Origin: Asterochloris sp. CNOR1
Taxonomy: Eukaryota; Chlorophyta; Trebouxiophyceae; Trebouxiales; Trebouxiaceae
Assembly (NCBI GenBank): GCA_963969365.1
Contig: OZ017746.1
Coordinates: forward strand, 2,666,001-2,730,000
Reading direction: 5' to 3'
DNA: 64,000 nt
The notes under the pieces were generated by a model. That model saw nothing but the letters and a program-made list of their open reading frames with translations, did no database searches and was not told the DNA's origin. The translations under genes and the position numbers were made by a program. This document shows positions 17,896-56,000 of this stretch, one piece after another; position 1 is the first letter of the stretch; the number at the start of each line of letters is the position of its first letter.

Positions 17896-17934
17896 GGGTA
17901 CGGGGGCCGTGGCTTGCAACATCAATGCAAAATC

Positions 17935-21410: not shown

Positions 21411-21557
21411 TGCACAGCCCTGTGTGCTCGGCCCTGTGTGCTCGGCCCTTTGTGCTGAGCCTGTGTGCTCGGCCCTTGTGCCCAGCCCCTGTGCTCAGCC
21501 CTTGTGCCCAGCCCTGTGTGCTCAGCCCTGTGTGCCCAGCAGTTGTGCTCAGCCCAG
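21411..21557. repeat. Degenerate 14-15 bp tandem repeat at LINE 3' end
   Basis: About ten variant copies of a unit like CCCTGTGTGCTCGG / CCCTTGTGCCCAG follow the ORF2 stop by 80 bp. They probably form part of the LINE 3' UTR. Confidence 0.8.
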
Positions 21558-22059: not shown

Positions 22060-25000
22060 ATGGTGGATGATCTCCAGTCAGTGCCAGTCTCTGCCCCGGG
22101 TGTGCACAGTTTAGAGACTTTGGGCCAGCAGGATGGAGCACCAGTCCCAGACGCAGCAGCTGGCTTGGCAGCAGCCATGCCTAACACTCCTGAGGAGGAA
22201 GCTTATATTCTCAAGTGCACCCAGCTCATCAATGCCCGTCATGGTGCGGCTAAGCCATAGAACACAGTCCAGGGTGAAGAAGCAGCTGCCAGGCTCTGGA
22301 AGGTAGGCGCTGTATGGCCTTTACTCCTGTTCTTATGGCGCCCTTGAGGCTTCCAAGGCCATGTCATGCACACACACGCGGTCTCGCAGACTTACTGTGA
22401 GCAGGAGGCGCCCCGGTGCCCTGATGGCGACCTCATGTCTCAGGCCAAGATTCTATGTGGCTTGTGGATGAGGCAGTGCAGCAGAATGGTGCTCGTTACT
22501 CGTTAATAGTGTGAGGTGAGAGGCCACTCCAGTGCTGTGTCTGAGATGCGCTCAAGTCCTGCATCCCAAAGTTTGGCCTGGTGTGTGCAGTGGTTATCTA
22601 TGCCACCTCAAGAAAGTCCGAAGACAGCAGTACTGGCGTGCCAGCATGCCGCCAAGTACAGATGGCTGGGCCAAGCACTGCCGCAACCCAGCCTTGTTGT
22701 TGACAGCTGTTTCCACAGCTTGAAACGGCTCAAGCCAACATAGCCAGCGCTGCTTGCTCTCAGGTCCTCTTCGATCTGATCAAGAACCCCCCTCATGGAG
22801 AGACGTCCCTTCATCTTCAATTGCTGCGAGTCGGCCTCTGCCTGCACTGCGCGGTGTGCGCCCCGCAAGTTCTGCTCTCCCGCAGTGCATTCTGTGAAGG
22901 GAAAAGGGCCAGCCCACGCCGGACCTCAGCTCAGTGCAAGTGGTTGCAGACATGGCTTACAATAGGTCATTAATTCCAGGTCAACACCCATGCTTCCATG
23001 CCCCTGAACAGGGCAGCAGCCTCACTGACAGAGGCAGTGTCAGTAAGGTCAGACATCAGACATTGAGGGACAGATCAGCTACCATCTGATTGGCACTTGA
23101 GTAACATGCCCATCTGCTGCAGGGCATTGTCAGCAGCCGCCATCCAGCCATGGACTGGGGAGCAGCTGGCGCAGCGGCTCCTGGTGGCCAGCATGCTGCA
23201 GGCCCTGCAAAGGATGCCAGCTGCTGAGGCCGCAACCCATGACGGCCTGCCTGCCATGAGCAAGCGGGCCGGCCTGCTCATGGCCCAGCACAGCACGCAA
23301 CTCAAGCCCTCAGGGCATGACAAGTCCAGGACCAAGTCTGCCGTTCAGACCGCTGAAGTGGGGCGCAGCGTGCAGGCAGCCATCGCCATCTTGCAGGGCC
23401 GAGAGGCAGGGCAGCGTGGCCTGCTGCTATCCCTCATGCACCAGAGTACAGCAGAGACTGGAGAGGAGTACTCTGCCCGCAGCATCACGCTGCCTTCCGC
23501 GTCCAGTAGGTGATCCACCTTGTGCAGTTGGCACGCTGCTGCTGGCTCTGCCTGCTTGAGAGTGGTGGCACTGTCATGGTGCTGCTGCAGCAGCTGTATG
23601 CTTGTGTGCTGTTCTGCCGTGTTCATGGGTTCCGACCTGTGACTGCTTCGTTCATAGAAGGGGGCTTTTGCCATGCTAGGCCCTAGGGAATGAGACGGGC
23701 CCTGATCGTGCCTACAGGATGGCTAACCACTCCTGGCAGCTGGCACAGCAGGCAGTGCTGAACAGGCTGACTCCAGAATTCGCTGCCCGGGCTATCCAGC
23801 AGCTCGACCAGCACATGCTGATGGCCTACACTCACAAGCTGCCGAACCGGCCCAAGTGGTTGCCAGCCACAGGGGGCAGCTTGTTCCTGACTGACTACCT
23901 GGCAGGATGGCGCCCAAAAGCAGCTGAGCTGCAGGTCAGCTGTCTTCCTTTCCTGTGTGCAATCGAAGAGACAAGAAAAGCTGCAGATCTGTATGCGCTG
24001 CTCTGCAGCCTGCACTGAAGTGCCAGCGTCTGGCCACATCGCCTTCCGCTGCAGGCTCCTCACAGCTTGCAAACGCTCCAGGAAACGCCTGGTCCTCACG
24101 GCCTCAACATTTTGCCACATGACCTCCTGCCTGCAGGCTGTTTCGCAGAGCCTGCAGTGGCAGCAGCAGGGCCACCAGTTTTTGAAGGTGCTGCAGCAGG
24201 CACGCCAGCTGGCCGGACATCTCCAAGATCTACACCCAGGCATCGGGCCCTACTCGCGAAACAACATTGTGAAGCGATTTGTGCAGACAGGGCTGCTGCA
24301 GCCAGGGCCCACAGCATCAGACAGCCACAGTGCGGCTCAGCACCATCAACCTTCGGCCCCAAAGTTGCAACAGGGCATACCGTCCCGTCGGAACAGGCCC
24401 TGGTAGGTAACACGCTTGGCAGCACAGCGTAGGAGACGTGACTGCCACCCTGCATAGCCCTGGACTGCAGACAAGCAGAGTCACTGTGGGCCATGCAAGC
24501 TGCTCAGGGCATGTCAATGCACCACTCAGCTTGATGATGCTGAGTCTAGCCTGCGCTAAGGTGCCTTCAACTATGTGCCCTGCAGGCGTCCAGCTGCTGC
24601 CTTGCCAGACTTAGCGGCGCCAGAGACCGACCCACGGGCTGTGCTAGACTTCCTGCACAGTATGCTGGAGTTCCCTCCACGGAGGGCCCTGCGAACAGTT
24701 GCCAGGCAGCCAGCACTGCTTTACCTAGATGTGTATGAGGATCTCCTGCCGGTCATGGCCTTTCTGGAGGAGCTGGGCCTCCCCTCACAGCAGTACGCTG
24801 CTGTCGTGAGACGGTGAGCTGGCAAACTCAAGAGTGTTTGCTGCACTTGGAAGCGGGCTGATGGCGGGCATGGGTGTAAGCTGCTGTCGCGAGACGGTGC
24901 GCTGGCATGTGCAAAGGTGTACAGGGCAGTCATTTGTGACCAGCTACCCTGCGCATCACAGGCATGGCTGGAACTCCTCTCACATCTGTGTGGCGGCGTC

Positions 25001-25862
25001 GCACAATTTGTGCTAGTGTGGCAAGCCACATGGCTGCTGCTTGTCACAAGGACAGGGTGCCACACAGAGATAGAATGGGGCAGCAGCAACCACTCGTTGC
25101 AGGTGCAGCCATGTCCAGATGCAGGTAGGGTGCTCTGTCCTGAGAGCATGTGGCTCCTGTCTGCAGGAACTCCTGGCTGCTGATGCAACCGCTGAGCCAG
25201 TTCCACCGCAATGTGGCGTACCTGCGAGGCCTCAAGTTTGAGGCCAGTCGCATTGCAACGCAGTTCACCAGGCAGCCCTGGTTGCTTACAGTCCCCATCA
25301 TGGGGCTGCACAGAGTCTGTAACGTGGTGGTCAGGCACCTTGATGGCAGCCTTGCGGTGAGCAGACACTCTCAGTGCAGCACAAGCGATTCAGTTTGACC
25401 ATGACCTGACCTTCTGACTAGATTGTTTGTGCCAGGCGGTCCTGCCAGAGAAATTGTGTGAGCCATTGGCTGTTGCTGCCCTGAGCTCACGCTCTCTGGG
25501 GTCGGCACAGGCCTACAGGGCTCTCAGAATGATGCTGGCTGGGGCTGCTGCAGGATGTAGCCTCTCACTACCCTGCTGTCATCAGGTCTCCAGACGAGCT
25601 GGAAGTTCGCATAGCATTGCTGCAGCAGCATGGCTTTAGTGTCATTCCGTGGCAGTCCTTCACACCTGGGATTGGCAATCTGTCGAGCACCAAGCTGCGG
25701 AACCCCCACCTTCCCAATCAGGTGTCCCTCAGAGCGGTAATTGCTTCATCGGAAAATGATCTCTGCAATCATGTGGACATGACTGCTGAGGGTCTCGAAA
25801 ACTTTCGCAAGGCCTGGGTGCTTCAAAAGAAAACCCGCTGGCAGCAGCCTCATCCAACCTGA
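22060..25862 (+). CDS. mTERF-family protein with long helical N-terminal region
   Basis: The mTERF part is exons 24595-24814 (LDFLHSMLEFPPRRALRTVA, YLDVYEDLLPVMAFLEELGL) and about 25167-25358 (NSWLLMQPLSQFHRNVAYLR, FTRQPWLLTVP), then AVLPEKLCEPLAVAALSS and SPDELEVRIALLQQHGFSVI to the stop at 25862. Upstream exons join in phase: GEQLAQRLLVASMLQALQRM (to about 23507), MANHSWQLAQQAVLNRLTPE and PKWLPATGGSLFLTDYLAGW (to 23934), and SQSLQWQQQGHQFLKVLQQA to SRRNRPW (to 24402). mTERF proteins are helical-repeat nucleic-acid-binding proteins of plastids and mitochondria. Exons left of about 23120, and hence the start, are not resolved; the ATG at 22060 (MVDDLQSVPVSAPG) is only a candidate, and the left part could be a separate gene. 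No transit peptide identified. The last intron's donor is unclear. Confidence 0.62.
24797..24907. repeat. Exon-edge echo in mTERF intron
   Basis: The 28 bp spanning an exon end and its donor (24797-24824, ending GACGGTGAGCTGGCA) recur at 24880-24907 inside the intron with three differences, the donor GTGAGC becoming GTGCGC. Confidence 0.75.
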
Positions 25863-26005
25863 TGATGGATTCATGCCAGTTCATTTGATTTATTTAACAC
25901 TGTTCTTGATGTCACCATCAGGTCAGAAAGGAGGGTCTGTGAAGCTGGACAATGCAGTGCAGTGTTGCTTGGGGTCAGCAAGGATCTTCACTTTTGTATG
26001 AGAGT

Positions 26006-26010
26006 TTACA
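26006..26010 (-). terminator. Candidate TGTAA poly(A) signal of adenosine kinase
   Basis: TGTAA, the usual green-algal polyadenylation signal, lies on the minus strand about 9 nt past the adenosine kinase stop. Confidence 0.45.
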
Positions 26011-26018
26011 ACTTGAAC

Positions 26019-28608
<2,590 letters not shown>

Positions 28609-28858
28609 ACTGTGATCTGGTTCTGCTTCAAAGGTGCGCCAGATCTTGAGGCTTGCTGCTTCAAATGAGTTCGCGACGCACTGATGTGCAAATGGCCAGG
28701 AACCAGAACCTGTGGCGGCTGTCGACTTCCTGAGGCCGGTCAACAAGAGTGAAAGCATCAGGCATTCATGTGGTCATATAGGTTGCAAGCCTCTCTCTCT
28801 CGCCAAGTGCAGATCTGATGTTGCAGGATCAAGGGGTTGACTCCCAGCTGGTGGCTTC
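28609..28858. promoter_or_regulatory. Divergent promoter region: adenosine kinase / GGCT-fold gene
   Basis: 250 bp separate the two start codons. No specific element recognised. Confidence 0.35.
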
Positions 28859-29458
28859 ATGGCACAGGGAGGCCAGCTCTACTTTGCCTATGGCGCAAAC
28901 ATTAACAGGGCTGTACTGGCAAAGCGCGGAGTGAAACCCCTGGACATCAGCCCCGCCAAGCTGCTGGATCCAAGCCTGGCCTTGTGCTTCCAGCATCGCG
29001 GCGGCTTTGGCACCCTGAAAGCTGCACAATGTCCATCAGACTGTGAGCAGCCCTGCTGCATTCACGGTCCTGTGCACGGGACAGCCATGCAAATAGACGC
29101 CGCTGGCTGGACTGCTCTGCGTGGCTTTGAGACTGGCTACAGAGTGCAGCATATTGAACTGGAAACATATGGCCCAAGTTGCAGGCTGCTGAAAGCGCTT
29201 GCCTTTGTGTCCCAGCGCCAGCTGATGCTCACACGGCCTGTGGCACCGCCAGCTCGCTACTTGAAACTACTGAGGGAGGGTGCTGCTCAGCATGGCCTGG
29301 ACCGCCAGTATCAGGCAAAGCTTGCTGCCTGTGTTGCCAGAGAGGCTGGTCCACTGCCCGATGAATATTTTGACACGCCGTCCAAATGGACAGCTGCAGG
29401 ATTCAGTGCTGCTGCTGTGCTTACAGGCATGGCATGCCTCCTGAACAAGCATAAATGA
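28859..29458 (+). CDS. Gamma-glutamylcyclotransferase-fold (AIG2-like) protein with C-terminal hydrophobic tail
   Basis: A single uninterrupted 199-residue ORF from ATG 28859. It opens MAQGGQLYFAYGANINRAVL; the YFAYGANxN motif is the hallmark loop of the gamma-glutamylcyclotransferase/AIG2 fold. FQHRGGFGTLKAA, IHGPVHGTAMQIDAAGWTAL and LRGFETGYRVQHIELE match the rest of the domain. After residue 170 (YFDTPSKWTAAG) it ends in a hydrophobic stretch FSAAAVLTGMACLL plus NKHK, which could be a tail anchor. The family includes enzymes acting on gamma-glutamyl amino acids or glutathione, but many members have unknown substrates. It lacks introns, unlike its neighbours. Its stop lies 6 bp from the convergent gene's stop. 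Confidence 0.82.
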   Translation: MAQGGQLYFAYGANINRAVLAKRGVKPLDISPAKLLDPSLALCFQHRGGFGTLKAAQCPSDCEQPCCIHGPVHGTAMQIDAAGWTALRGFETGYRVQHIELETYGPSCRLLKALAFVSQRQLMLTRPVAPPARYLKLLREGAAQHGLDRQYQAKLAACVAREAGPLPDEYFDTPSKWTAAGFSAAAVLTGMACLLNKHK

Positions 29459-29464
29459 TGATGA

Positions 29465-31643: not shown

Positions 31644-31757
31644 GATGGCAAGCTTACTCGGCACACGTCTGCCAAGAACTTCCTGCTCCTGAAGGGCTCA
31701 TGTATGTGGGCTGCATGCAAATAGAAGCAAAAGGTGAGAGATCAGCTTCATCTTGCA
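31644..31757. promoter_or_regulatory. Very short divergent promoter (114 bp)
   Basis: It separates the start codons of the DHIPPN gene (-) and the cyclophilin gene (+). If both starts are right, promoter and leaders must overlap with coding sequence. Confidence 0.3.
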
Positions 31758-33552: not shown

Positions 33553-33585
33553 GCCTCGAGGCCTGTGTCCTATTTGAGTCTGACT

Positions 33586-33590
33586 TTACA
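33586..33590 (-). terminator. Candidate TGTAA poly(A) signal of DDX24-like gene
   Basis: TGTAA on the minus strand lies 76 nt past the helicase stop (33666), just beyond the stop of the convergent cyclophilin gene. Confidence 0.4.
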
Positions 33591-33665
33591 AAGAGATACA
33601 AGGAGGGGAAAATTGATTCGATCTTACTCAGCTTGATATCAAGCCAGGTTTCGTTCCACAACCAG

Positions 33666-36600
33666 TCAATCAGTGCGTCGTTTCTGCCAGGTTGCCCTCA
33701 GGGCTTGAAGAGCATCAGGTCCGCTCTGATCCCTGCCAAAGGCAGCAGGAATGACCACAAGACCTGGCTCCTTTCTGCCACCACTCTTTCTCTCCAGCTT
33801 CTTACGCAATGCAACCTCCAGCGCAGCCTGCTGGATCTGCTGCCGTGACTGGGGCTTCTGGCTTTTCAGTTTCACCTTGCCTAAAGCAGTGGGCTGCTTC
33901 TGCACATCTCCGTTGCCTTTCTTGGCTTTGAGTGTGGAACTTCCGCGTCCGCTGTGGTCCCTGCTAGCCTGCAGCTTCTGAGCCAGGGCCAGCGCATGTC
34001 GAACTGACGGTCCCTGGTTGGCAGGAGTATGACTCGCCTCTGCAGTGTCCTCCTTGGCCTGATGGGCAGCCAGGGCAGCAGCTCCGCCCCCGCCAGTCAA
34101 GAAGCGGTGGCTGAACTTGGGGGCCAGGGGCTCAGACAGCAGCGCGCCAAGAGACTGCAGAGAATGTAGCAGGCAGCGCTCATCACTTTAATGTCCACCG
34201 GTGTTGCCACTCAGATCAAGTGTGTTCTTGACTTTCTCAGTCATCATCATTCAAGAAAGGGGCTGGCTCATATGACATGCAACCGCCGCCCATGCATGCG
34301 TGCACACCTGCTGCAGTTCGGCTGCTGCTGTGCTGTCAGTGGGTTGTGCCCTTCGCTTCCTGCGCTGCTGGCCCTCATCACCTGAGTCGGCCTCGCTGTC
34401 ATCGCTCAGTTCCACGCCCAGCTGCAGGAAGGTGCAAGCACTGCTGAGGTGCTTTCAGGCAGGTCACAACATGACCCCATACCAAGCAAGCAGGTGCAGG
34501 CACTCCTGTGGCCCACCAGCAGATGAGAAAGAGTCTAAGGAACAAGCGGTTGCCGTTCAGCATGACTGCAGTGACCTCAGCCATCTGCAGGAGCCCCTCT
34601 CTGGGGCAGATGCACGCACTGGCGTTGCGTGACAGATGGGCTGGCTAAGAAGCGCCAAAGAGAACCCAGCCAGAGTGCAGCATAAGAGTGACTTCATCAG
34701 GCCTCTGCCAACCTCTCCCAGAGCAGCACTCACGCTCCCACCTGCTCTGCATTCCTGCGCCTCCATGACATTTCAGCCTTCTGCTTGGACTGAGAATGCT
34801 GCACCTCGTCAATCTTCACAGCCAGCTTGACACGGCTGTGTACCTGCATCCACAGGCGCTGCATCGTCTCAGCAAATGTTGAGTTGTATGAGCCGGCTTC
34901 TGTCTGCGTGCGGGGTGAGGGGTGACAACAGGTCTGCTGCCGGTGCCCATACATAACCTGATGCTGTTGGCGGTCGGTGATAGACAGCATTGAGGGCATG
35001 CAGACGAGCGCCTGACTGCAGCAGCACCACAGCCAGCTACACACAGGCAGGCCGCCTGCCTACAGCAGCAGTGTCAGGGCAAGCATTGCAGGCCGGCATC
35101 AGTATGGCAGGACTGCTCACCGCCGGCATGAGCGATGTGTCAACAGGGAACTCTGGGGGAGCAGCCCGTTCCAGCGCCTGCCACAGTGCCTGGAAGCGCG
35201 TCTGCTCCTTGGGCCCGACCAGGGCGATGCTGATGCCCTCAGCCTGGCCGCGGGCCGTGCGCCCGCTGCGGTGCACATACACATCTGCCGAGGCGGGCAG
35301 CTGGTAGTGGATCACGCAGCGCACATCCTGGAGGCACAGCAGGATCAGGGCTGGGGGTGGGGCTGTGCTGAGTGCAGGCAGCAGGATGCTGCCAGGATGT
35401 GCATGAGGCCAGGGTGTCTCATATGCTGCCTGAAATCCAGGTACCAATCACTGCAGGCTCGGTCAGACAGACCTTGGGGGCATTGAGCCAGAGCTGCAAC
35501 AGCTGGGGACGGGCATAAGCGCCTGCCCCTTGATGAGAGCCACTAGCCTCCAGAGTACAGCCACCAGTACCAAAGTGACGAGAGAGTACACGTCTCCAAT
35601 AAGCACAGTATGCACAGCACTCACCAGGCTCCTGTCATGATGTCAATGCTCTTGACAGCAGTACCAGTGCCCACCGCACTTGCACACAAACACACAACTG
35701 ACCTTCAACTGGGCGTCCAGCCCCTGAGCTGCCACAGTCAAGCAACTAGACTTGGTTGAGAGCCAGCACAGCTAGACTCTCACCGAGCAGGCATGGGTCT
35801 CCGCCCCATCTGCATGTCCAGCACGGCCACATGGTCGACCAACCATAGCCAGGCATCCATACACAGCGTGCCCTCGCCTGCATGTCCTGCCTACATGCAC
35901 GGCAGCACCCATCACGAGGGCGATGGCGGATACAGCACCATGCTCACCTGAGTGTCCAGTCCCCTACTGGCCCTCTCAATAGACACAGCATGTCCCCATG
36001 GTGGAGGCCAAGGCCTCTCTGCAGCCATGTTGACGTCCTCGATTGTCAGAAAGGCAGGCATGCCCCTGACCTGGATGCTCAGCTCCCCGGCAGCTGCACA
36101 ACCACAAGACCATTCACCATCTAATGCATCCCCTCCCCCAAACACCTCCCCAGAGCTGGGCAGGGAAACATGGCTGGAAGTCCAGCCCCCTGGCAATCGC
36201 GTCGGTGACCCACAGACACGGCCTCTCCCCACACAGATGTCCGGGTGCCCCTGGCAGCCGTCTTGATGGTGAGACCCATCGGTAGTGCAGACACCTGGTG
36301 CCCTCAACTGAGGGTCACGCACATCTAGCCACAGACCAGACTGGGGGTCAACACAGTGCTGGACGTGGAGACTCTCCGCAGGCATGTCCCTCACCTGGAT
36401 GTCCAGGCCCCTGGCAGCCACATCAGTGGCAATCATGACCGCATGGGGATCCCCCTTGAAGCGGTCCAGCGCCTTGAGGCGCTGTCGCTGCTGCATGGAG
36501 GCGTGCAGCGCCAGCGCAGGCAACTGCAGCAGGCGCAGCAGCGCGGCCAGGCGCCGGACAGTGGAGATGGCGTTGACAAAGACGAGGGTGCGCCCAGGGT

Positions 36601-39566
36601 GCTGGGCCAAGATGTAGTACAGCACTGCGTCTTGCTCCTCCTCGGAGCAGGAGACGTACGCCTCCACCACCTGCAGGTGCGGCAGCAAGGCCGTCATGAG
36701 GTGCAGCAGCAACAATCCTTTGTCAGACTGCAGCAGCTGGCAGCGCAGGACAAAGCAGTGAAGCTCGTGTCTCAGGTCATGCTGCCTGGCACTGCCATTG
36801 CATAATTCAAAGCATGGTACATCAATTGATGACTGACTGTTGCTGCGCTTCTGGCAGCCACGTGCATCTAGGTCTGAGAGCTTGTTGATGAAGTGCACAT
36901 TCAGGCCCCCGGCACTGGCAGCCCACCTTATCGGCCAGCTTGCGGGTGCTGGTGAGGTCCACCACCTTGGGCTTGGCCCGAAAGGGCAGCTGGTCCATGA
37001 GGGAGTCCAGTGTGGCACTGCCAGAGGAGCCACCACCTCCTGCAGGCACGCAGCAGGACGCTGTCTGCCTTTGATGGCCACTTAGGGAAGCTGGTGCCAC
37101 TTGGAGGCACCACCTGCTGGTTGTGAATGTGATGCCTCCAGTCCTTGCAGATGTGCTGCACAGGGCAGCAGCACCAGATTTGAGCCACGATGAGAAGAAG
37201 GAGGCCTTGCCTGGGCCTGGGCCGGTGCTAAGGGATAGCGGCTTCTGCCTTGTCAGGGCTGGCTGCAAGCTCATCACGTGCACTGCACGCCTGTTGTTGC
37301 CGGTGGCAGCTGCCCTACATGTGCCTCGGCTGCTGCAACCCCCTGCACTGCTGCCAGATTCAGTGTACCTTTGCGCAGGCGCTCTCTCAGGCTGGACGGC
37401 AGCGTCAGGGTGGCTGAGAAGACGAAAGTCTGGATGAATTTCTTCATGAACTTCTGCACAGGGACGTCCTCTGACTGCTCAGCCTCTGCAGCTTCAGCTT
37501 GTAACCTGTCATCTGCTGCAGGCCCCTCTGCCACTGCGTCACCAGCCGCGGCAGGCTCAGCCCCGTGCTTGGGCACCTGTTCCAGGATGCTGCTCAGCTC
37601 CTGCAGGATGCGCCAGATGTCAGGCGTGTGCTGGCAGTGAGCCCATCAGTGCTGAAGGCGCAGTACGATAACATTCATATCACGCAGCAGTCTGCAGTAA
37701 GATGATCTGCCGCGCGTCACAAGAGGCCGAGTGTGGTGTGCCAGCATGCTGTTGTTTGTCACCCTCCAGCTGAAACCCTCCAGGCAGCGCTGCAAGCTGG
37801 GAGCACCCCTCCCATATGCTGAAATAGCTGAAGGAGGCGGAGCTGTCCAGCCACAGTACTACATGCAAGGCGTCACCTGGAAGTGCCCCTTCTGCACCAT
37901 GCGGTCAGCCTCGTCCAGCACCAGAAAGCGCAGCCCGCCCAGGGCAGTCAGGTGGGCGTGGCCCCCGCGCATCAGCTCCCACAGGCGCCCAGGGGTGGCG
38001 ACGATGACCTGCACGCAGAAGTGGAACCTGCAGTGCATCTGCAGTCCCAGTTGCACGACCGCTGGAGCTCACGGCTGCCACCACTCAGAGCAAAGCTTGC
38101 TGCAGCACGTGGCAGCCTGAGCTAGCCTGCCAAAGAAAGCATAGGCAGGCCTGCCACCCACACTGGCATCGCACAGCAGGCTTGCTCGCCCACCTCGGGC
38201 TGCTTCCTGAGTAGGCGCTCCTGTTTGGCCATGCTGATGCCGCCAACAATTGGGACCACCCAGATGCCGCAGGACTTCCCAATCTTCTGCAGGTGGTCAC
38301 ACACCTGCAGGCAAATGGCTGTCCTTGCCAGGCATCAGTCTCCTGGGAGTCCTTTGCAGTAAGCCAGATGGATTGGTCAGGCATGATGTGCAGGACAAGC
38401 AGCAGGCCTCTACATGCGAGCAGCAAACAGGTGCATGAAGCCTGTGCTGCTGCCAGGCCCACCTGCAGGGCAAGCTCTCTGGTGGGCGCCAGAACAAGGG
38501 CCTTGAGGTCCTTGGGTCCACGTCTGGCAACTCCTGCCTGCCGCTCTGCCATCAGGAGCTGCATAATGGGCAGCCCAAAAGCCAGCGTCTTGCCGGAGCC
38601 CTGCAGAGATCTGCCACTTCTCAGCAAATGGAGCAGCATGTTTGTGGCGCTGCATGGCAACACACAGGTCAGCTGCCTGGCCTCAAGCACAGCTGCATCC
38701 TGTCTTGAGCGGGGCTTCCATGGCGCATGTGAACTCCCCCTTCATTGATCAGGCACTACAGCTGCCTGCACTACAGCTGCCTCCTCTGGAGAGCAGGCCT
38801 CAGCACAGCTCATCAGAGCTGCACGCCTGGGGCTGCAGCCTGTGCAGATTTGACGCACAACAGGCGCCAACAAAAGTCAAATTCTGCGCACCGTCTGGGC
38901 TGCCCCAATGATGTCACGGCGATCCCGGATGGCTGGCAGCAACGCCTCTTCCTGAATGGGCGTGGGCATGCTGAAGCCCAGCTGCGCAATGGCGGTTTCA
39001 ATCTGAGGTGCCAGCTGCAAGTGTTTCCAGCTGCTGATGTCTGCACCAGCCACGGCAGGGGCCTGCTCAATTTGGGCGGGAGCAGGGGCGGCCTTGGCGA
39101 CCTTGGCTTTCTTCTGCCGCTTTGCTTTGGGCGCCGTGCCTGCCTCGCCTGCGTCTGACTGCTGCAGCGATGCCTTGAGCTGAGCACTCATGCGCTTCAG
39201 CTGCGCCATCTGGGCTTGCAGCTTGTCCACATGTGTAAAGCTGTCCTGGGACTTGCGCTTCTTGCAACCCTTGTCCTTAGGCTTCAGCTCAGATTGGTCC
39301 TGGCCTGCCTGAGCAGCAGCAGCCCTGGGGGCGGCGGCTTCCCCGCCATTTGCTCCCAGGCTGCCATCTGGTGCAATTTGCTGATTGGTGCCAGGCACAG
39401 TCCCTTTTAATTTTGGCTTGAGCACCTCCAGGCCCATGAAACCCCCCTCCTGTGCCCCAACCAAAAGATCATCGCCTGCTTGCACTGGCTCCCAACTCTC
39501 TGCTGACTGCAATGACTCAACTTCAGTGTGGTTAGCGCCACTGAAAGTCATCCGGGCCCTGCCCAT
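33666..39566 (-). CDS. DEAD-box RNA helicase, DDX24/MAK5 type
   Basis: All helicase motifs appear in order from right to left: Q-motif [17 protein letters not shown], motif I ([15 protein letters not shown] across an intron), Ia [60 protein letters not shown], then [34 protein letters not shown] and [22 protein letters not shown]. Features of the DDX24/MAK5/RH13 branch are the N-terminal [32 protein letters not shown] block, the acidic insert before motif III, and the C-terminal [20 protein letters not shown] and [18 protein letters not shown]5 works in 60S ribosome assembly in the nucleolus. The start could also be 39662 (an in-frame ATG adding MAFTQHLRHLLQNTCKAPRR...). The intron after motif V holds five decayed copies of the motif-V exon end. 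Confidence 0.93.
35786..36424. repeat. Exon-edge echo array in DDX24-like intron
   Basis: The real exon end coding VAARGLDIQ plus donor spans 36378-36424. Imperfect copies lie at 36235-36275, 36172-36207, 36053-36106, 35941-35982 and 35786-35835, all within the following 1,067-bp intron (35328-36394). Copies keep pieces such as GGCTGCCAGGGGC, CTGGACATCCAG and GACATGCCTGC (minus strand). Confidence 0.8.
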
Positions 39567-42797: not shown

Positions 42798-43259
42798 GCT
42801 TGTGAGATGGATGTGTGAGAAGCAGGGTGAGCTGATTCTGGTGGCTGCTGTACATTGCGGGAGGATGTCAATCTTTTTTCTGTTGCTGAGTACTGCTCCT
42901 GCTCCTGCTTCTGCTTTGGTGTGGAGTCAGTACATCGTCAGATACTTTGCAGTGAGGCATACTTTTGTGCCATGAAAAACACATGTCCTGTAACATGCAT
43001 GTCTCTGCAGCTGGGAGTGTGGAGGTGATTCTTCTTTGCTGCCTCTTCCCATCTTTCTGCAGCCGCCTGTGTATGCACTGCAATTCAGAGTTGTGGGTGC
43101 AATCGCGGCGGGGCTCAAGAACTAGCCAATTGTTCATTTCAAGCCTTGCATGCCACATTGTGCAGCTGGCATGCTAGACAGAGGGTGTCTCTTGAATACG
43201 CACAAGTGCTGGGCTGGGGAGAGATCACTGCAGACTGAATAACAGGTAACTTAGAACTG
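42798..43259. other. Convergent intergenic region, SYLF / hyccin
   Basis: No coding exon or RNA gene seen. It holds the two 3' UTRs. No clear poly(A) motif. Confidence 0.5.
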
Positions 43260-46114: not shown

Positions 46115-46462
46115 GGCTGCACCAGCACTAGAACTTCAATTCTGCAGGCACCTCACTTTGACAGGAAACCTACCTCGCTGATGCGCTCCCCTGGCTTACA
46201 AGGGTGGTTTGGCAGATGGCTTGTGGCTGCCTGAGAAACCGCAGAACCGTTCATTCCGTGTTTCCACCAGCAGCCGGCATCTACGAGCCCAGCACGGACG
46301 GTATCCCTTTCAGCTATGTGAGGCAATGCTGCAATGTGCTGGATGCCTGGAAAGGCGCTCAAAACCTCAGTCAACTTTGACGCTCGTTGACCACCTGAGA
46401 GCCAGAAGAACGTGCAGGACCACAGCAGTGGCAGTGGACTTGTACGACTCTTGCTCGTTTCC
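46115..46462. promoter_or_regulatory. Divergent promoter region hyccin / PI31
   Basis: 348 bp between the two start codons. No coding sequence, no clear motif. Confidence 0.35.
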
Positions 46463-49400
46463 ATGGCGCCCACAAAAGAGAGTTTGGAGGCCATCATCAG
46501 GGCTGCAAGGCGAGAACAGCTTTGGCTGCAAATTGCACTGTTCTTGTACACAGGGGCTGCATCCCTGGCTCCAACGCTCCAGGCTCAGCTGTTGACATCA
46601 AGTCCTTCTGTGCAGGCCTACACTGACATCCAAGTATGACAGTCTGGCCTTTGCTGTCCACGCCTTCATGCTGGCAGATGGCTACAAACTGGTGGCTGTT
46701 GGTGACCATGCTGAAAGGCAGCTTGCAGGTGAGAAGTTCAGCCAGATCTTGTGGGTCTGTTCAGAGTTCCAAGGGACACCTCATCCAGACATGTGAGGCT
46801 GTGCAGAACCTGCTCCCCATGAAACGCTGAGGCCAAGTGTCGATGCGCTGCAGACAGCCGAACCCCCAAGGAGGTTGATGTTGCTGGCTGGAACAGCTCG
46901 CAGGAGAGCTTCTCGTTCCAGTATGTGGACAGCACAGGCGAGTTTGCTGTGTCTGATCCCGCCTTCCAGTCTCACTGTGCACGATGCTGATGCATTTTAT
47001 GGCCCCATGCCGCTGCTATAGCTGAGAGCAAGCAGCCAACGCAGCCATGACCGGTCTTTGCTGCACGCCGATGCAGGGTTGTGCTGAGGCTGGCCATGCT
47101 CCAGATGCTGGGGGGCCTGAGCTGCTGGTGCAATGGCTGTCCAGCCTGGGTCAGCCTGCTGGTTTGCTGGTGTAATGGCTGTCCAGCACAGATTGAAAAT
47201 GCCTGGATGTGTCTGTGCTGATGCAGGCCATGCCCAAGCTGCTGCTTCACTGCCTGTACAGCCTGGCCCATCCCGCAAGATTGTTGGTGCAATAGCTGTC
47301 TGGCATTGAGTATTACGCTTCATTGCGCTGCAGGCCGGCGCACGCCTGTGCTGGTGCAGGCTATGCCGATGGGGCCCAAGCTGCTGGTGCACTGGCTCTC
47401 CACAAGGGAGCAGACTGACCCCCAGACCCTAGAGCTGGACGTGGACCGCTACATAGCCAACATTGACACCGACGGTGAGCCCCTGGGTCTTGCTGTCCAT
47501 CAGCACTCAGTCAGGGAAGCGATTTTGCATAGTGTGTCGCTGCAGCTTGCGCGCGCCGCATGCTGCTGCACTGGCACCAGGGACCAGCCCTGCAGGGGAG
47601 TTCCTCCAGCGCCGCGACTGGCCAGCGCCGCGACTGGCCAGACTGTAGAAGCTGGCACTTCCATAAGCGATGATGGTGAGGCTGGAGTGTGATGTGTAAG
47701 GAGAACTACGATGAGGCTCTGAAGCGACGTGCTGCACTGCCTGCTGCCTGCACAGGCATGAGACGTAAGCCGCCCCTTTCATCTGTCAGCCGTGCAGACC
47801 ATGCTGACATCGCTGATGATGGTGAGTCCAGGCTGCTCTGCCAGCTGCTTTCCAACCTGTGGCAGGTAAATTGCCCGCTGCCTGCACACCATGCCAGCAG
47901 CATGCCATGTCGCAGGCAGAAGCGCCAGCTATACAGGTTCTGACTTCTCCTGACAAGGCCCTGTGCTGCCAGCAGGAGTAGCCGCAGATGCAAGTCTGCG
48001 TAGTCCTGCACGTGCAGCCCCTGAGACTGCCTGGCACTGGATCCAGTCATCTCAGGCCCTCAAGCAGATAGTCCAGGCAGAGCGCTGCACAATCTTGCAT
48101 TCTGCTGGCTGGCTTTTTAACGCGCGGCTGATGTTGGGGCTGCTGCAGTCTGCAGCAGCAGCCACCTGCCCTCTCAAAAGCCATTGACAGTCTCCCTCTG
48201 CCAACAGGCGCCTTTGTTTATGCAAACTCAGCTGAAAGCTCCAGTCATGGCTGCAGACATTGTGGCTGGCTTCCGCCACCTGGACGAGCTGTGTGAGAAG
48301 CTAAATGAGTGCTTGTATGCCACCACGGCAAAGCCGCGGACATCAGCAGAGCTGCGACAGAGCAACCGCACAGAGGGGCAGAGCTCAGGCGCTGCCAGGG
48401 GTGGCAAACAGGGGCCGGGCAGCGCCGGCCCTGCAAAGCCAGGGCCACACCCCGCAGAGGGTTCTCTGCGAGAGCCCAACTTCAGTGAGTCTGCCTTCTG
48501 CAGATGCTCTCAGGCTCAAGCCTGCCAGTTGGTCTGCTTGCTGGGAAGGCACACATGCCTCCAAGCTCCAAGACAAGGCTGCACAGCAAACCCCCCCCCC
48601 CCCCTCCCTGGCCCTAAGCTGCGACCTTATGCTGCCCTGTCCCAGGCTGCAGCTGACGATGTCGCATCCTGTGCACTGCACTCCGTGACCAGATGTGAGG
48701 GGTTGGCAGGGGCCAGCCCATGCCGCCTTTTACAGGCCCTTTGTGTGCTGCCGCTTGGTGATAAGGCATGAGCAGTGCCAGGTGGACAGCCCATGATGCT
48801 CTGCGCACCCCTTCTCTGCAGGCAGTGGGCCTGCTCCGCCGGAGGGGCGCATCCCAGCGCTGCTTGGGGATTTTGGCAGGGGCGACATGATCCCTCCGGG
48901 GCTGCCGCCGATGCCACACCTGCCGCCCGGCTCTGGGGACTTCATCCCCCCCGGCAGCGGCATGATGGTCGGCCCGGACCACCCCATGTTCAGGCAGGGC
49001 AGGTGCGCAGGCTGCTGGCAGGCATCCCCGCCGCTGCCCGCCTGACCTGCCTGCCACTAACTGCCATGGCTGGTACTGGATCTGTCTGGATGCAGTACCC
49101 CTGCCGATGTGCGGCAAGGCTCTTATGTCCAGCACATGCTCTGCTGCTGCCGCCAGATGCTGCCAGAACAGTCTGACTGCAGCAAAGCTGCCAGCAAGGT
49201 GCCCACCACACCCACCTGGTGCTCTGCTGCTGCAGGCCAAGGCCGGGCCCGGGCCTCCCCGCGCATGGTGGGGGGGTGCCCGGCATGCGCTGGGACCCCA
49301 TCGGCCCGCCCGGAACCCCAGTGAGTCCCACGCCCTTGGCCCCTGCACCCACGTCTGGTGCACCAGGTGCCGTTTACTACTGGTGGCAGTGTCAGGGTCA

Positions 49401-49631
49401 CAACCCATGCAGGAACCCCTTTCCTGGCCTGCGGAACTCTTGCTGCATGAGCAAGCCAGAGATGTCATGTCTGGTTGTCGTTTGCACGTCGCCCTGGCAT
49501 AACCATGCTGCATCGCTTTGCAGGGCTTCCTGCCAGATGACCTGCAGCGCCCTCCCCCTCCGGGCCAGGTGCATCCAGACCTTGCTCCTCGTGGGTTCCG
49601 TGGCCCTGACTGGGACAGCATGTACGGGTGA
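46463..49631 (+). CDS. PI31: Proteasome inhibitor/regulator PI31
   Basis: Eight exons (46463-46509, 46616-46728, 46854-46937, 47334-47474, 48257-48484, 48822-49002, 49236-49320, 49524-49631) sum to 328 residues with every phase consistent. N-terminal FP domain: MAPTKESLEAIIRAARPTLT, SKYDSLAFAVHAFMLADGYK, VDVAGWNSSQESFSFQYVDS, TGRRTPVLVQAMPMGPKLLV, GFRHLDELCEKLNECL. The C-terminal half is Gly/Pro-rich: GRGDMIPPGLPPMP, VPGMRWDPIGPPGTP, GFLPDDLQRPPPPG, ending GPDWDSMYG. The terminal M-Y-G fits the hydrophobic-Tyr-any (HbYX) motif by which PI31 docks on the 20S proteasome. Introns 1 and 3 have GC donors. Intron 3 contains decayed copies of exon 4. An additional small exon in the long intron 4 (47475-48256) cannot be excluded. 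Confidence 0.93.
46510..46615 (+). other. GC-AG intron (PI31 intron 1)
   Basis: Exon 1 ends AGGGCTGCAAG; the intron starts GCGAGA and ends GTGCAG. The phase-2 join gives RAARPTLTSKYDSLAF, as in the family. No in-phase GT donor nearby. Confidence 0.85.
46938..47333 (+). other. GC-AG intron (PI31 intron 3)
   Basis: Exon 3 ends GACAGCACAG; the intron starts GCGAGT and ends CTGCAG. The phase-1 join gives DSTGRRTPVLVQAM. The intron also contains the PI31 exon-4 echoes. Confidence 0.8.
47081..47403. repeat. Exon-edge echo array in PI31 intron 3
   Basis: Exon 4 (47345-47403, with core AAGCTGCTGGTGCACTGGCT) has decayed copies upstream in its intron at 47081-47144, 47157-47187, 47211-47262 and 47281-47305. 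Confidence 0.78.
47606..47641. repeat. 16-bp tandem duplication in PI31 intron 4
   Basis: Two identical adjacent copies of CAGCGCCGCGACTGGC. Confidence 0.8.
48591..48604. repeat. Run of 14 C in PI31 intron 5
   Basis: Homopolymer tract within the intron between 48485 and 48821. Its length may be variable or miscalled. Confidence 0.9.
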
Positions 49632-50087
49632 CAGTAGCAGTGTACGCATCGGCCTTCCTTTGTATGCATCACACTCAGACTTCCTCTGGCATCCAATCAC
49701 TGCTCTGCCACGTCTTCCCGCACCCTTGCGGACTGACACCATGAAGTTCGAGACTGGAATGACAACGCCTCCAATGACAACCCAGCCGCACCTGCCTTGC
49801 CTTGTTTGCGCTCCCCAATCAACACCCTGCAGAAGCCCCTCTACTCCCCACTCAGCATGTCATGGCTTCTGAGCTCCGACCCTCTGAGTCTTGTCAATCA
49901 TGCACCATGTTACACGGCATATATCCATACCAGCATGCATTTGTGAGCAGAAGACAGCAAAGTCATGGAGGGTCTGGGCTGTGTCACATGTCACAGGGCA
50001 CCTGCACATCCTCAGCTGGCCAGCTCCCACATACGCAAGTGCACAGACTGGAATCACACGAGGGCTGCTTGAGCACAGCCAGCCTGC
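49632..50087. other. Convergent region PI31 / pyruvate kinase
   Basis: No gene recognised. It holds the 3' UTRs. Confidence 0.45.
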
Positions 50088-53000
50088 TCATTTCTCACGG
50101 TCACCAGAAAATCGTGAAGGTATTGCTGTACGTTTGGGGCTGAGCTCTACCTCAGGAGAGATCACAGATGTTGCACCACCAGTGAAGGAGGGCTGTGAAC
50201 TGAAGCTGGCCCCTCCCTCTCCAGCAAACTTCAGGAAGTCAGCATGGGACCCTGCAAGGACATGTGGCTTGCCTTGCTGCATCACTTTCTGGCCAGGACA
50301 TTAACAGGCCCTTCTAAACATATAGGCCAAGACACACAGCTGTGTAGCAGGCACGCTTTGTTGGCCAAGCTCATTGTGACCACTTTGTCTAGGGCTGTTG
50401 CCACTCATCACTCCAAGGCGCCCAATGAGTCCAGCGATGAGCACAGTGAGCTACCTGTGCGCTGCCCCATGCCCTTGCCCTGACTGTCCATGGTAACCAC
50501 TTTCAGAACCAAGTTCCCTCCCATGCTCAAGACACAGACTATGTGAGCGCTGGCCTTGCAGAACCCCTTGCTGGCTGCCGCCTTCACAGCCTCCTGCAGG
50601 TACCACAGATAGCTGTCAGGTTGCGCTGTGAGCACTGGTCCCACATACTGGCGCTGGGCCAGCCGGTGAGTCCAGCAAAAGCGCTGGGCCAGCCTGTGAG
50701 TCCAGGGACATGAGCAAGCGAGGGACATGGACGTCCATGTGTGCAGGCAGCAGCAGGAAGAACGGCAGAGGCTGACCTCCAGCATGACATCACTGTTGCC
50801 GGGCACTGGCGCCGCCAGCATCGGAATGACACCTGCATGGGCGCAACTCTGCTCAGCGCAAGCTCCTTTCATGGGTGTGCTGTTTAAAAGGCACAAAAGG
50901 CATGTACTGCAGCCACCACAACCAGAGGTCAAGGTAAAATGTTGCACAGCCAGCGCCTGCCCCGCGTGACAGTGCACGCTTGCGCGAAGCTGCGGCCGCT
51001 CAGGCCCACAATGCAAACAAGCAGCAGGCATGCAGTGCAGCCGCAGATCTGCAGGACTGCAGGTAGCAAAGCCATGCACAGCAGGCATGCATTGCAGCTC
51101 GATAGCAGGCAGCACCCCCCACCCCGCATGATGAGGCACTGCCGCGCCAGGCTGCGACCGCTCAGGTCCCAGCTCAGAGAGTTGCTCTTCAGCGTGGGTA
51201 CAACCAGCGTGACAATGGGCATGGTTGGGCGGTACTTGGCAATCAGGCTGGCCGTGCGCCCCGAGTTGGCATACACAATGATCAAGCCGGCCTGCAGGGT
51301 CAGGGCTGGGGGCATCTACAGGACACAACATACATGGCAGGCCGCGGTGGCACTCAAGCCTGGCTAGGCTTGGCCAACAGGCACGATTTGGAGGAGCCCA
51401 GCATGCAGCAGCCAGGCAGAACAAGCAGTAGGGGCTTGTCTGGGATCCAGCACCTCCTGCTCGTGCGGCTGGGTGGCATGTCAGCAGCTCACTTGAATCT
51501 TTTCAGCGCAGCGCACTGCCGTTGAGGCAATGCTCTCGACCTTGTTCATCCAGCGGTCAGCATTCAGAGTCCTCGGTACTGCCGCTGCAGGCAGTCCAGC
51601 AGCAGTGAAAACCCAACCCTTCACAGGCATGACAACGAGAGGCACTTCAGATGCTTGCAGCACACTTCTGCAGACTGCAAATTGTGGCTCTGAAGCCCTG
51701 CGCTCCATTGGGAGGACTGTCGTTCAGCACGGCAGGCAGTGCTTGCCAGGAGCAGATTGCAGCAGGGTGACGACCATGGGCAGCAGTGCATGTGGAATGC
51801 CTCACCTCCTGCCTGGGCCTTTTTAAGTTGCTGCTCGCTGAAGGCACGGGGGATGGAGCCAAAACTGCTGACCTTGGGCATGCCCAGGCGCTCATAGGAA
51901 GCTGACTGGGAGTGCACAGGGCCAGAGGGTCGTACACCTGCAGCAGGAAAGGACCTACTGATGCCCCAACTGCCACCTTAGGTGCTGCCGGCTAAACCCA
52001 CTGCTGTGGCACATGTGCCTGCAGCACCATCTTAGCAGGTCCTGGTGTTCAGCTTGGCTTGCATCAGGCTCAACCTGACAGCTGCAGGAGGGCAGACCAC
52101 AAGCCTCAAATGCCACTGCACTGTTGGGCCGCCTCAGGCGCCTGCACACCAACCTCTGTCAGCCCGGGGGGGGAGCTGCCCAGTCTGGCCTGTGGCTTCC
52201 AGCTCCTGGCTGGCACGGGACTCCCGAGCCAGAGGGGACACGGCCCCTCCACCGCCTGCCGCTGGCGTGCTGCGAGGGGGCAGGGGGGCATCACTGCGCG
52301 GGGGGCGGAGCGAGGGGCCTGCAGGCACCAAGGGACCAGAATCCCTGCTCAAGCAAGCGCGGGGTCGAGCCTGCTGCAGGCCACCCTGCGACGGCGCTGA
52401 CAGCCGTGAGCAATGCAGGTATGAGGTTGAGAGGCTCCAGCCTCCTGACACTGGAGAGATCAGGCCAAGTGCGGCACCAGTCCGCCGGCCCAGCGAAGGA
52501 CACAGTGACGCCCCTGCCACAGCGCCAGAGTACCCCAGCCGCTGGGCATGTGTCAGCGCACTTGCCTGGCGGCTCGCTGTCCAGCTTCAGCAGGTCGTCC
52601 TGGCTGCCCATGTCGATGTCATCTTGCTGCATCCGGCCAAGCAGCACTCACGACTCAGGTTTTGTGAGGCACTGCCCAGCACACAGCACCAAGGTGATGC
52701 AGTATGCTCCTAGACACAGCCAGCCCAGGGGCACATGCAGCTCTAAGCGCAAGATGTTGTGCAGGAGCACAGTGCCACTCAAGGCACCGCCAATCTGCAA
52801 CTTGGTGCTGGCTGTCCAGGTGATAGGCAACAGGCTGACGCAGGCATGCGCATCTGACAAAAGCGTCATGCAGCGGGCACGCCCAAGCACGCTTGCTACA
52901 GGCTGCTTGCCTCTCAGCTCACCAGCAACTCAGCATGCAGCCAGGCCCTTGTGGCAATGCTCGACCAGCAGCCAACGGCCCTCAGCCGAAAGCTGTTGAC

Positions 53001-56000
53001 AGTTACCATCCAGACTCTGGCTGCTCAACAACCAGGCTGCTGGGAGCCTGGCTTACCGCCATGGAGTCTGCCATCAGCCACTCGAAGTGCGCATCGTGGT
53101 TGTACACCAGCTCCGCCTGGCGGCAGATGTTGAGCACCGTCTTCACGGTCAGCACTGGGTATTTCCCCCGCAGGGTCTCCGCCCCCAGCATGACCCCGTC
53201 CACACTGTCCAGCACCAGATTGGCCACATCAGTGGCCTCAGCCCTGCAGACGGGGAGGAGGGTGAGCTGAGCTGCAGGGGCCACCAAGCGTGGGTGTACA
53301 GGGCGGCCACACATGTGGGGCAAGCCGGAAGCCTCAGCCTTGCAGCCTGAGCTCATTGTTGAAGGGCTCATTGAGACTGCTGCCTGAGAGGGATGGCAGC
53401 TGCCTGAGCCTCATCAGCCAGCCAGCACTCATGATTGGCCACCTCTCTGGCCTCAGGACTGCAGCAGTGCCGCAGGTTCGACTTGCAGTCCATAGAGCCT
53501 TTGCTTGTTGCAGGCAGCAAGGGACCAACCTTGCAGGCCACCAAGTGCAGCGCCTGTGGGCTCAGCACTGCAGGTAGGTGGGTGGTACTCTTGTTGGGTG
53601 TGCAGGAGGGCAGCACGGGCAGACGCCTGCTCCTGGTTACAGGCAGAAAGCCCTAGCCCCACAGCATTGCTGGTTGCTTTGTCACTATACAGCGTGACAC
53701 AAACAAGGTAGCGATATCAGAAAGTACAGCATCAGCAGGGGCTGCAGCTGTGCAGGTGGGGCAGGCAGAGAAGGCCCCTGTAACAAGACCTACAAGGTAC
53801 AGCATTCATATCACAAGGTCACGGATCGTAGCTATCTGGCCCCTGCATGTCACCTCTCCCCTCTCAGCACACAGTTGGCTGAAGCAGCAAACTGCAAGCC
53901 TGGCCAGCCGCATGCTCATTGCCCCAGCACCACATTGCTGCCAAGTCTGCCAGGCCTGTGCAGACCTCAGGGGCTGCCGGCACTGCCATCAACCTGTCAT
54001 CATGCAACCACACCCACATGAGCCTGGGGCGTGTACTCTTGCCATCTCCAGACCAGCAGAGAGCACCATGCCGGTGCACAGGGGCAGTGCCTGACCTGGT
54101 GGGCCGTGGCGCTGAGACCATCGTGTCCACCAGGCGCGTGACGATGCAGGGCTTGCCCAGCAGGTTGCAGCGGCTGATGCAGCTCTTCTGAACGAGGGCC
54201 ATCTTCTCAGGGACCACGTCCAGCCCCAGGTTGCCGCGGCTGAAAATGACGCCATCCGCTTGCAGGCAGATGGCCTCAAAGTTGAGCAGGGCCACGCGGT
54301 TCTCGACCTGCAGAAGCCCGCAGGGCAGAGGGTGGCGTGGGCTGCGGCTAGAAGGGGAGGGCATCACCTGACAAGCATTATGCTGACATGTATCGTGCTG
54401 ACGGGTGTCGTGCGACAGGCGTTGTTCCAACAGGCACGTTGTGACAGGCAGTCTGTGACATCCAGATGAGCAACAGGTTGGGGGATGTTTGACACCCTGG
54501 GGTGCATCGTAGGGCATGCCAGGCGGGCTCATGCATCACAGGGCACTCCACAAGCCAGAAATTGACGGTGCTGCATCCGGTGCATGGCAGTATGGCCACC
54601 TCTTGCAGAGAGGTTTCACAGCCTACCTTGGCCAAGATCTTGGTCTGCTCTAGGCTGAGCTTGTCCAGGAAGTCCCTGCATAGCAGCACCGCATTGCTGC
54701 ATCTGGTGCAGTCGAGCTCAAACTGTGCCATAGGCTGCTGCTGCCGATGCTGCAAGCATGCGAGGCTCTTCAGTAAGCGTCAGGGCCAGGCGCATTGTGG
54801 CGGGGGCTTGTGCGCCAGCCAGTGGCCCAAAGATGTCTGCAGTGGACGCAGGCCTGCTGTGGCGGCTGCCCCTTTGCAGCCTACCATACTCCAGCAGTGT
54901 CTGCGCTCGCAGCACATAGCACACAAGTGGCCCAACTGCTGTGGCGGCCCCCAGACTGCAGCCTGCAGGCGTCCGCTTGGCATCTGCTCTTGCACAGGGC
55001 AGTCCTGCTTTGGCGGCTGTGAGAGGGCAGCATGCAAGGTGGCAGGGTGCCAAGAGCTTGAGGGTGCCTTGAGTTGATGCGACGCACTAGCCCTGCTCGG
55101 AGCATCAGCTCGGTCTGAGCTTTGACCATGTGCACAAGTGCCTGGCACCGGACTTCCCCACCTCATGTCCTCCACGTCCTGCCCATCTTTGGTGAAGGTG
55201 AGGGAGATGAAGTCGATCTCATGCTCCTCTGCAATGCTGCGGATGGCGGCCACATCATGCTCGCTCAGCAGGGGCAGGTCAGCCTGAATGTTGCTGATCT
55301 GCAGGGAGGGCACAAAGTTAACTGCAGCCGCTGCATCTCCAGCTCATGCACCAGGGCTGGTGTGCAGGGCAGCAACAGAAGGTCTCTCACATGGACATCT
55401 AACCCTCATGCTGCGACGTGCAGCATTGTAACAGCGCACTGCTGGCACAACTGCCGCTTGCGAAGGCAGCATGTCAACTTGTCTGCCCCCTCACCTGTTC
55501 GCTGTCACTGGAGTGGATGACGGTGAGCAGGCCGTCCAGCATGGCATCGTTCTGGGCCTCGCACACAACATTCTCGCCCTTCACAGACCTGTGCGCGGGT
55601 CACGGGTGTCACACATGCTGCCGTAGCCCCCATGCAGGAGCTCACTCGGTGCTCTGCGTACCTGACTTCCAGAAACAGGGAGGACTCATCCGCGCCATTT
55701 GCAAGGTACCTGAAGCAGGATAGGCTCAGGTGCTTCACTTGCTTCACTGTGCAGGTGGCTGCAACAGGGTATGCTTCCCTTTGGCCACCCCCCAGCGGTC
55801 TTCACGCAAAGAGGTACAGGTGCCAGCATGCCGACCCGGATGATGTCAAGTGCAGCTGTGCGTGAGGCTCACTGGTGCTCCAGCGGGCCGTTCACAACTT
55901 CACCAAGTACAGCAGGAGCATCAGAGCACTCGCCTGCCCACAAAGACAGTGTCGCCGGGGGACACCATGGTGTGGAAGTTGGGATACGTGATGGGGAGGC

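Follow-up and report, generated by a model that had tools for sequence, protein, structure and literature searches.

Changes in intron length are usually attributed to transposons or to small insertions and deletions. Tandem exon duplication is known to give alternative exons, with copies of an exon and its splice sites lying in the neighbouring intron. Here we describe introns that hold degraded copies of the adjoining exon edge, hereafter called echoes, in a 64-kb stretch of the green alga Asterochloris sp. CNOR1. This stretch, the window, spans positions 2666001-2730000 of contig C1 in a genome of 56.4 Mb and 21 contigs. The echoes are found in five genes of the window, encoding an mTERF-like protein, adenosine kinase, a DDX24-like helicase, a PI31-like protein and pyruvate kinase, and also in other parts of the genome. 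We suggest that the echoes probably stem from tandem duplication across the splice junction, with selection keeping one of the two copies.

Unlike tandemly duplicated exons, the echoes are partial copies that decay without coding constraint. Tandem duplication is also an established source of introns, according to the part of a review covered here (PMC3443670). In the Rogers model, as presented there, an intragenic duplication doubles the splice signals and one copy becomes intron. The echoes share this doubling, but in the model an exonic AGGT gives rise to a new intron, whereas here, on our reading, the duplication lengthens an intron that already exists, and the extra site decays. The potato RdRp gene, in the part of its description covered here (PMC4974935), has a tandem duplication over an acceptor boundary that carries the branch site, the AG and the exon start. 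The exon piece in the upstream copy has turned intronic, and one intron of this gene holds another tandem duplication, of 83 bases. As we propose for the echoes, the potato unit spans an intron-exon boundary; however, the potato case is a single recent one that yielded a new intron, whereas the echoes are many and of different ages, occur on both sides of introns, and lead us to infer growth of existing introns. Introners and introner-like elements are likewise a DNA-level source of intron sequence (PMC9860276 and PMC4457414, in the parts covered here), but there the same sequence is found in many genes, whereas an echo resembles the exon beside it far more closely than introns of other genes do. 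Duplications of this kind have been published as single cases. Among the matches listed (titles and starts of abstracts, and open papers), none describes widespread exon-edge copies left behind as introns grow, although an earlier account may be in print. The covered part of the Coccomyxa genome paper (PMC3446292) holds no description of exon-edge copies.

The window has a GC content of 55-62% per 4 kb. Genes were modelled with a self-trained, phase-aware gene finder that was written for this analysis and reads both strands. It was applied to 264 kb, made up of the window and of regions on contigs C2 (3.0-3.1 Mb) and C12 (2.2-2.3 Mb), and converged on 66 genes with 821 exons and 755 introns (11.4 introns per gene, median intron length 158 bases). 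The consensus, with the junction given as a slash, is CAG/GTGAG at the donor and TGCAG/G at the acceptor. The acceptor is unusually uniform over the 755 predicted introns: the three bases that precede the AG are T in about 87%, G in 92% and C in 98% of them (TGCAG), figures that were possibly sharpened by the self-training. Pfam matches agree with the five genes as they were named in an earlier, first-pass annotation of the window: PfkB for the adenosine kinase, mTERF, DEAD and Helicase_C for the helicase, PI31_Prot_N (22 bits at a cut-off of 21) and pyruvate kinase.

In these five genes 69 introns were predicted. Some were merged across doubtful exons and others were omitted, which gave a curated set of 36. 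In brief, the edge test compares 60 exon bases and 20 intron bases at one side of an intron with the remainder of that intron, using 1000 length-matched foreign introns as controls, so that p cannot fall below 0.001. Both sides of the 36 introns were tested, giving 72 tests. Six gave p<0.01, where 0.72 are expected, at six edges in six introns (Table 1), and ten gave p<0.05. The introns with p=0.001 are mTERF 24814-25166 with one copy, adenosine kinase 27114-27612 with four, DDX24-like 35328-36394 with five, PI31 46925-47333 with three and pyruvate kinase 53244-54092 with one. Another pyruvate kinase intron, 50833-51122, has an edge echo at p=0.005. Ten of the 14 copies at p=0.001 span the junction, the remaining ones touch it or sit in the exon start, and weaker further copies occur in DDX24, PI31 and pyruvate kinase (p 0.016-0.15). 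The best scores of the six echo edges in the reverse complement are 7-10. In the curated cases all copies lie within one intron, and the protein needs no second intron. The copies do not form a minisatellite: Tandem Repeats Finder gave zero arrays in the six echo introns, and the DDX24 copies are diverged and have uneven lags of 160-686 bases, unlike the near-identical head-to-tail units of a minisatellite.

Table 1. Exon edges and their intronic copies in five genes of the window (positions within the window; lags in bases)
Feature	Position	Strand	Evidence
mTERF-like exon end and donor (junction 24813/24814), conserved copy	24793-24824	+	score 24.5, p=0.001; mTERF Pfam match
mTERF intron, decayed donor-edge copy, lag 83, GT retained, 29/32 bases identical	24876-24907	+	edge test
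Adenosine kinase acceptor edge (last intron bases and exon start), conserved copy	27067-27127	-	edge test; exon backed by solved adenosine kinases
Adenosine kinase intron, acceptor-edge copy, lag 47	27137-27164	-	p=0.001
Adenosine kinase intron, acceptor-edge copy, lag 97	27190-27219	-	p=0.001
Adenosine kinase intron, copy confined to the intron end (as far as CTGCTGCAG), lag 184	27298-27317	-	p=0.001
Adenosine kinase intron, 61-base acceptor-edge copy, lag 275, AG retained	27342-27402	-	edge test; solved relatives skip the stretch
DDX24-like helicase donor edge, exon ending ...GGACATCCAG, conserved copy	36378-36418	-	edge test; Helicase_C match
DDX24 intron, donor-edge copy, lag 160	36220-36259	-	p=0.001
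DDX24 intron, exon-end copy reaching the junction, lag 221	36174-36195	-	p=0.001
DDX24 intron, 41-base donor-edge copy, lag 324, GT retained	36054-36094	-	p=0.001
DDX24 intron, donor-edge copy, lag 447, GT retained	35943-35965	-	p=0.001
DDX24 intron, donor-edge copy, lag 686	35699-35736	-	p=0.001
DDX24 intron as curated, 1067 bases; internal predicted mini-exons judged echoes or spurious	35328-36394	-	curation
PI31-like acceptor edge and exon start (junction 47333/47334), conserved copy	47327-47402	+	edge test; PI31_Prot_N barely over cut-off
PI31 intron, acceptor-edge copy, lag 267	47060-47099	+	p=0.001
PI31 intron, exon-start copy, lag 259	47112-47143	+	edge test 47112-47132, p=0.001
PI31 intron, exon-start copy, lag 133	47213-47234	+	p=0.001
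Pyruvate kinase acceptor edge (CTGCAG/GGCTGAGGCC...), conserved copy	53209-53249	-	edge test; Pfam
Pyruvate kinase intron, acceptor-edge copy, lag 215, AG retained	53422-53464	-	p=0.001
Pyruvate kinase donor edge of intron 50833-51122, conserved copy	51122-51171	-	p=0.005
Pyruvate kinase intron 50833-51122, donor-edge copy, lag 163	50960-51008	-	p=0.005

In four of the five genes the gene finder mistook copies for exons: 27322-27405 in adenosine kinase, short exons within 35473-36018 in the helicase, 47077-47149 in PI31 and 53443-53458, of 16 bases, in pyruvate kinase. The adenosine kinase exon is false, as solved relatives join the flanking exons directly, and the helicase mini-exons were rejected on solved relatives that run straight across the inserted stretch. 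The echo exons of PI31 and pyruvate kinase were judged by eye to be wrong. Intact-looking splice sites and open frames in echoes thus mislead gene prediction, and automatic annotation of this genome may contain such false exons.

Because the gene finder had called echoes as exons, the census of the 264 kb was redone with 396 confident exons. These have 335 gaps between them, of which the 317 of at least 90 bases were used. An echo at p<0.01 was found on either side in 53 of these 317 introns, where about 2% are expected. By side, p<0.01 was reached at 8.2% of donors and 10.7% of acceptors, compared to 0.9% and 0.6% with the reverse complement. At a score of at least 14, donor edges gave 22 matches in their own intron and one in its reverse complement, with 0.85 expected from swapped introns; for acceptor edges these numbers are 29, two and 1.32. 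The result is similar for the 567 of the 755 predicted introns that measure 90 bases or more, with 23 own, one reverse and 0.48 expected at donors, and 19, none and 0.9 at acceptors. Same-strand copies are above chance, and the edges match their own intron rather than the swapped introns of other genes, so they do not form a family shared between genes as introners do. In three held-out stretches, for which all parameters had been fixed beforehand, 8 of 53 introns have an echo (4/20 on C5, 3/15 on C18 and 1/18 at 1.0 Mb on C12).

That the echoes are an artefact, produced by base composition, by splice motifs or by our own gene finder, is scarcely credible. The self-trained models do contain false exons, but the controls used (swapped introns, reverse complements and held-out stretches) take care of composition, motifs and gene calling. 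In addition, a search that made no use of annotation gave 131 local direct repeats (lag 15-600, score at least 16) against one at a lag of 3000-3585. The claim of the first-pass annotation that introns carry degraded exon-edge copies is upheld, also in the comparison of intron-to-exon similarity with controls that it had named as its refuting test, made here on a sample rather than genome-wide. Its count was seven introns, spread over four genes, with pyruvate kinase in addition; we could confirm six introns in the five genes, and the remainder could not be identified. That copies lie beyond the donor or before the acceptor is true but trivial, since an intron copy can sit nowhere else.

Introns that host echoes are longer, with a median of 443 bases compared to 277 for those without. 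Among introns of at least 600 bases (n=46) echoes at p<0.01 are found in 15% and 28%, by side, and introns of 90-130 bases have no echo excess (5/119 per side at p<0.05; 0/16 at p<0.01 in the confident set). By region, echoes were counted in 6 of 76 introns in the window, 12 of 124 on C2 and 35 of 117 at 2.2-2.3 Mb on C12. The last region has the longest introns of the three and echoes in 14 of its 16 genes; they are roughly three times as frequent there as in the window or on C2. It should be noted that C12:2200001-2300000 is possibly a duplication-rich chromosomal domain; the stretch at 1.0 Mb on the same contig has no such enrichment (1/18).

A tandem unit that crosses a junction must leave an exon part that touches it. 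The junction is crossed by 30 of 42 matches (71%), compared to 1279 of 1734 (74%) in simulated tandem duplications. At a score of at least 13, matches were found for 13 of 315 donor and 29 of 315 acceptor windows spanning the junction (expected 0.7 and 2.4) and for 17 of 314 and 18 of 314 windows on the first 40 exon bases (expected 0.8 and 1.75). They fall to 4 of 304 and 7 of 305 for windows 20 bases further in (expected 0.8 and 0.85), and windows at least 40 bases from the junction gave 13 matches in total, with 8.5 expected. Intron-internal windows matched in 50 of 3393 tests (1.5%; 9.8 expected). The copies are thus anchored at the junction. On the intron side, 31% of the 29 acceptor echoes and 50% of the 22 donor echoes reach at least 30 bases.

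This reach also bears on the proposal that break repair or template switching pastes 15-50 nearby bases into the intron, with no tandem unit. Break-repair insertions often yield inverted copies. Short templated insertions of this kind would fit the short exon shares, and also short identical pairs with dissimilar flanks, but in simulation only 8-11% of them reach at least 30 intron bases, against 40-65% of tandem duplications. Moreover, the 30 of 42 copies that hug the junction would not be expected from random templates, and inverted copies are near chance (1 and 2, compared to 22 and 29 direct ones). We consider this origin unlikely for the echoes as a whole; as a cause of the missing flanks, short insertions were ranked second once intron reach had been simulated.

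Several observations weigh against tandem duplication as the origin of the echoes. The share of acceptor echoes that reach at least 30 intron bases (0.31) lies under both tandem simulations (0.44 and 0.65). The exon share of the lag has a median of 0.22, compared to 0.38 simulated (Mann-Whitney p=2e-4), and none of 32 junction-touching matches continues past 80 exon bases, which about 22% of simulated ones do. One of the 42 matches extended past 130 exon bases without touching the junction. Net of chance, windows 20 exon bases in are matched at 0.29 of the edge rate, where the simulations give 0.81-0.83. Beside their cores, short and highly identical pairs have a flank similarity of 0.48-0.51, compared to 0.47-0.48 in a control of the same lag. 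Such near-zero flank similarity counts against tandem duplication, as a young tandem unit should show residual similarity there, and these pairs may include another mechanism. A check for hidden long copies among the 335 adjacent pairs of confident exons turned up two that were clearly of this sort, whose exon parts measure about 64 and 70 bases, and left the short-exon bias unchanged. One reverse-complement donor match scores at least 18, with 0.03 expected, and on C5 the acceptor side has no own matches and 4 of 20 reverse ones at p<0.05 (none at p<0.01). Finally, the gene models are our own self-trained predictions from the DNA of one genome.

Local duplication is not restricted to exon edges. 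At a score of at least 15 there are 162 pairs of local repeats, and 6 at the far lag, which reduce to 93 non-overlapping families located in introns, exons, junctions and intergenic DNA. Intron-intron, exon-exon and intergenic repeats are also above the far-lag control. Near-complete repeat units are found in 19 of the 93 families, mostly at short lag. Some units have survived complete, for instance one on C12 at 82300, outside genes, with a lag of 91 and 98% identity, and like the direct orientation of the copies this weighs towards a tandem origin. Lags below 60 bases are found in 2 of 44 pairs that involve an exon, compared to 12 of 26 intron-intron pairs. Two perfect tandem duplications, presumably young, were observed in the named genes: one of 15 bases in a DDX24 intron (38753-38782) and one of 16 bases in the PI31 gene (47606-47641), where it lies at the border of an exon predicted with low confidence.

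Duplication itself, and not only the survival of copies, might be more frequent at splice junctions, for example because of R-loops or nucleosome edges. Such a bias would agree with the short exon parts and with edge windows being matched in 4-9% of cases, compared to 1.5% for intron-internal windows of similar target length. With random placement and the 396 confident exons, 20 pairs join a junction-spanning copy to an intron copy where 7.5 are expected; with all 821 predicted exons the numbers are 16 and 14.7, which is no enrichment. Pairs that involve any junction number 28 compared to 23.0 for lags of at least 60, and 22 compared to 14.6 for short blocks (p=0.017). As the result flips with the annotation, we make no claim that junctions are targeted. 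The exon copy decays more slowly, which in any case must boost detection at edges and for which the simulation is not normalised, and repeats occur in intergenic DNA and between exons too. A junction-focused rate is distinctly unlikely on this evidence.

The codon positions of 51 echoes were used to follow the decay of the copies. Mismatches amount to 66/471, 66/467 and 104/461 at the three positions (14.0, 14.1 and 22.6%), and 87 of 231 changes are silent (0.377, compared to 0.299 under free change; binomial p=0.012). Free decay of the intron copy, of about 14%, together with silent drift of the exon, of about 8-9% at third positions, yields this pattern by our reasoning. Two coding copies under constraint, as in tandem or mutually exclusive exons, would look different, and so the codon pattern leads us to reject functional alternative exons. 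More generally, it is very improbable that the copies function as alternative or mutually exclusive exons or as decoys for regulated splicing. Among copies whose match extends over the splice dinucleotide, most keep it (GT in 10 of 12 at donors, AG in 17 of 24 at acceptors), several copies were read as exons by the gene finder, and the silent share is slightly over free decay. However, intact dinucleotides require no selection at such divergence, a difference of 14% at codon positions 1 and 2 is far from a constrained coding copy, the silent drift of the exon itself accounts for the extra third-position changes, and in solved relatives, both of the adenosine kinase and of the helicase, there is no place for the copies. 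Intron copies decay freely. Divergence at positions 1 and 2 ranges from 0 to about 0.35 (42 echoes with at least 10 scorable sites), and because of this wide spread there was no single burst of duplication.

Based on these observations, we propose tandem duplication with one selected copy in the following form. Small tandem duplications would arise throughout the genome. A unit that spans a junction, at lags mostly of 60-390 bases and about half of them 80-140, would place a second splice site and a piece of exon inside the intron. The exon-side copy would remain under selection, and the copy inside the intron would be freed and decay at the neutral rate. The outcome would be a longer intron that bears an exon-edge echo, and repeated rounds would give several copies. 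As only one of its two copies changes freely, an echo should outlast an intron-intron duplicate of equal age as a readable trace. The first-pass annotation had proposed repeated short tandem duplications over exon-intron borders with one copy under selection, and this agrees with the direct orientation, the junction anchoring, the free decay and the higher frequency in longer introns.

Splicing may also determine which duplications persist. Twins that share a long exon context, or units too short to carry a branch site of their own, would be spliced wrongly and disappear, and fidelity would thereby weed out units that contain a long stretch of exon or not enough intron. Mutational bias is a possible alternative cause of the short exon parts. 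We speculate, only tentatively, that introns in this lineage grow steadily through tandem duplications that cross junctions, and that splicing fidelity lets only those units survive whose exon part does not exceed about 80 bases and whose intron part is long enough (10th percentile 54 bases), as the spliceosome must tell the true site from its twin. About 8% of edges have an echo above chance, and detection is expected to fade near 0.3 substitutions per neutral site. As a rough estimate, one edge in four may therefore gain a surviving echo per neutral-site substitution time. The duplications appear to be a genuine source of intron length, but on these data not one that can be called the main source. 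The first-pass wording, "a main way introns grow", goes beyond the data: only 53 of 317 introns have an echo, and detectable local direct duplicates (score at least 15) make up 3.6% of intron bases, a figure that leaves out older ones, which would be undetectable. Its suggestion that splice sites move found no example in the analysis, which included no search aimed at moved sites.

Outside the five genes, a gene predicted at 16601-21257 has a translation that looks, by eye, like that of a LINE-like retrotransposon, with endonuclease-like and reverse-transcriptase-like stretches. Directly past it, at 21408-21555, lies a 14-base minisatellite (TGTGCTCAGCCCTG) of about 11 copies.

The conserved exon serves as the reference copy, so that duplications too old to be recognised inside introns are still readable at exon edges, and one genome suffices for estimating the rate, age and size of duplications. 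If splicing fidelity is behind the size bias, the echoes provide a natural experiment on how splice sites are recognised. Should the filter reading be true, echoes across the genome would amount to a natural mutational scan of the exon and intron context that defines a splice site, and to a clock of intron growth.

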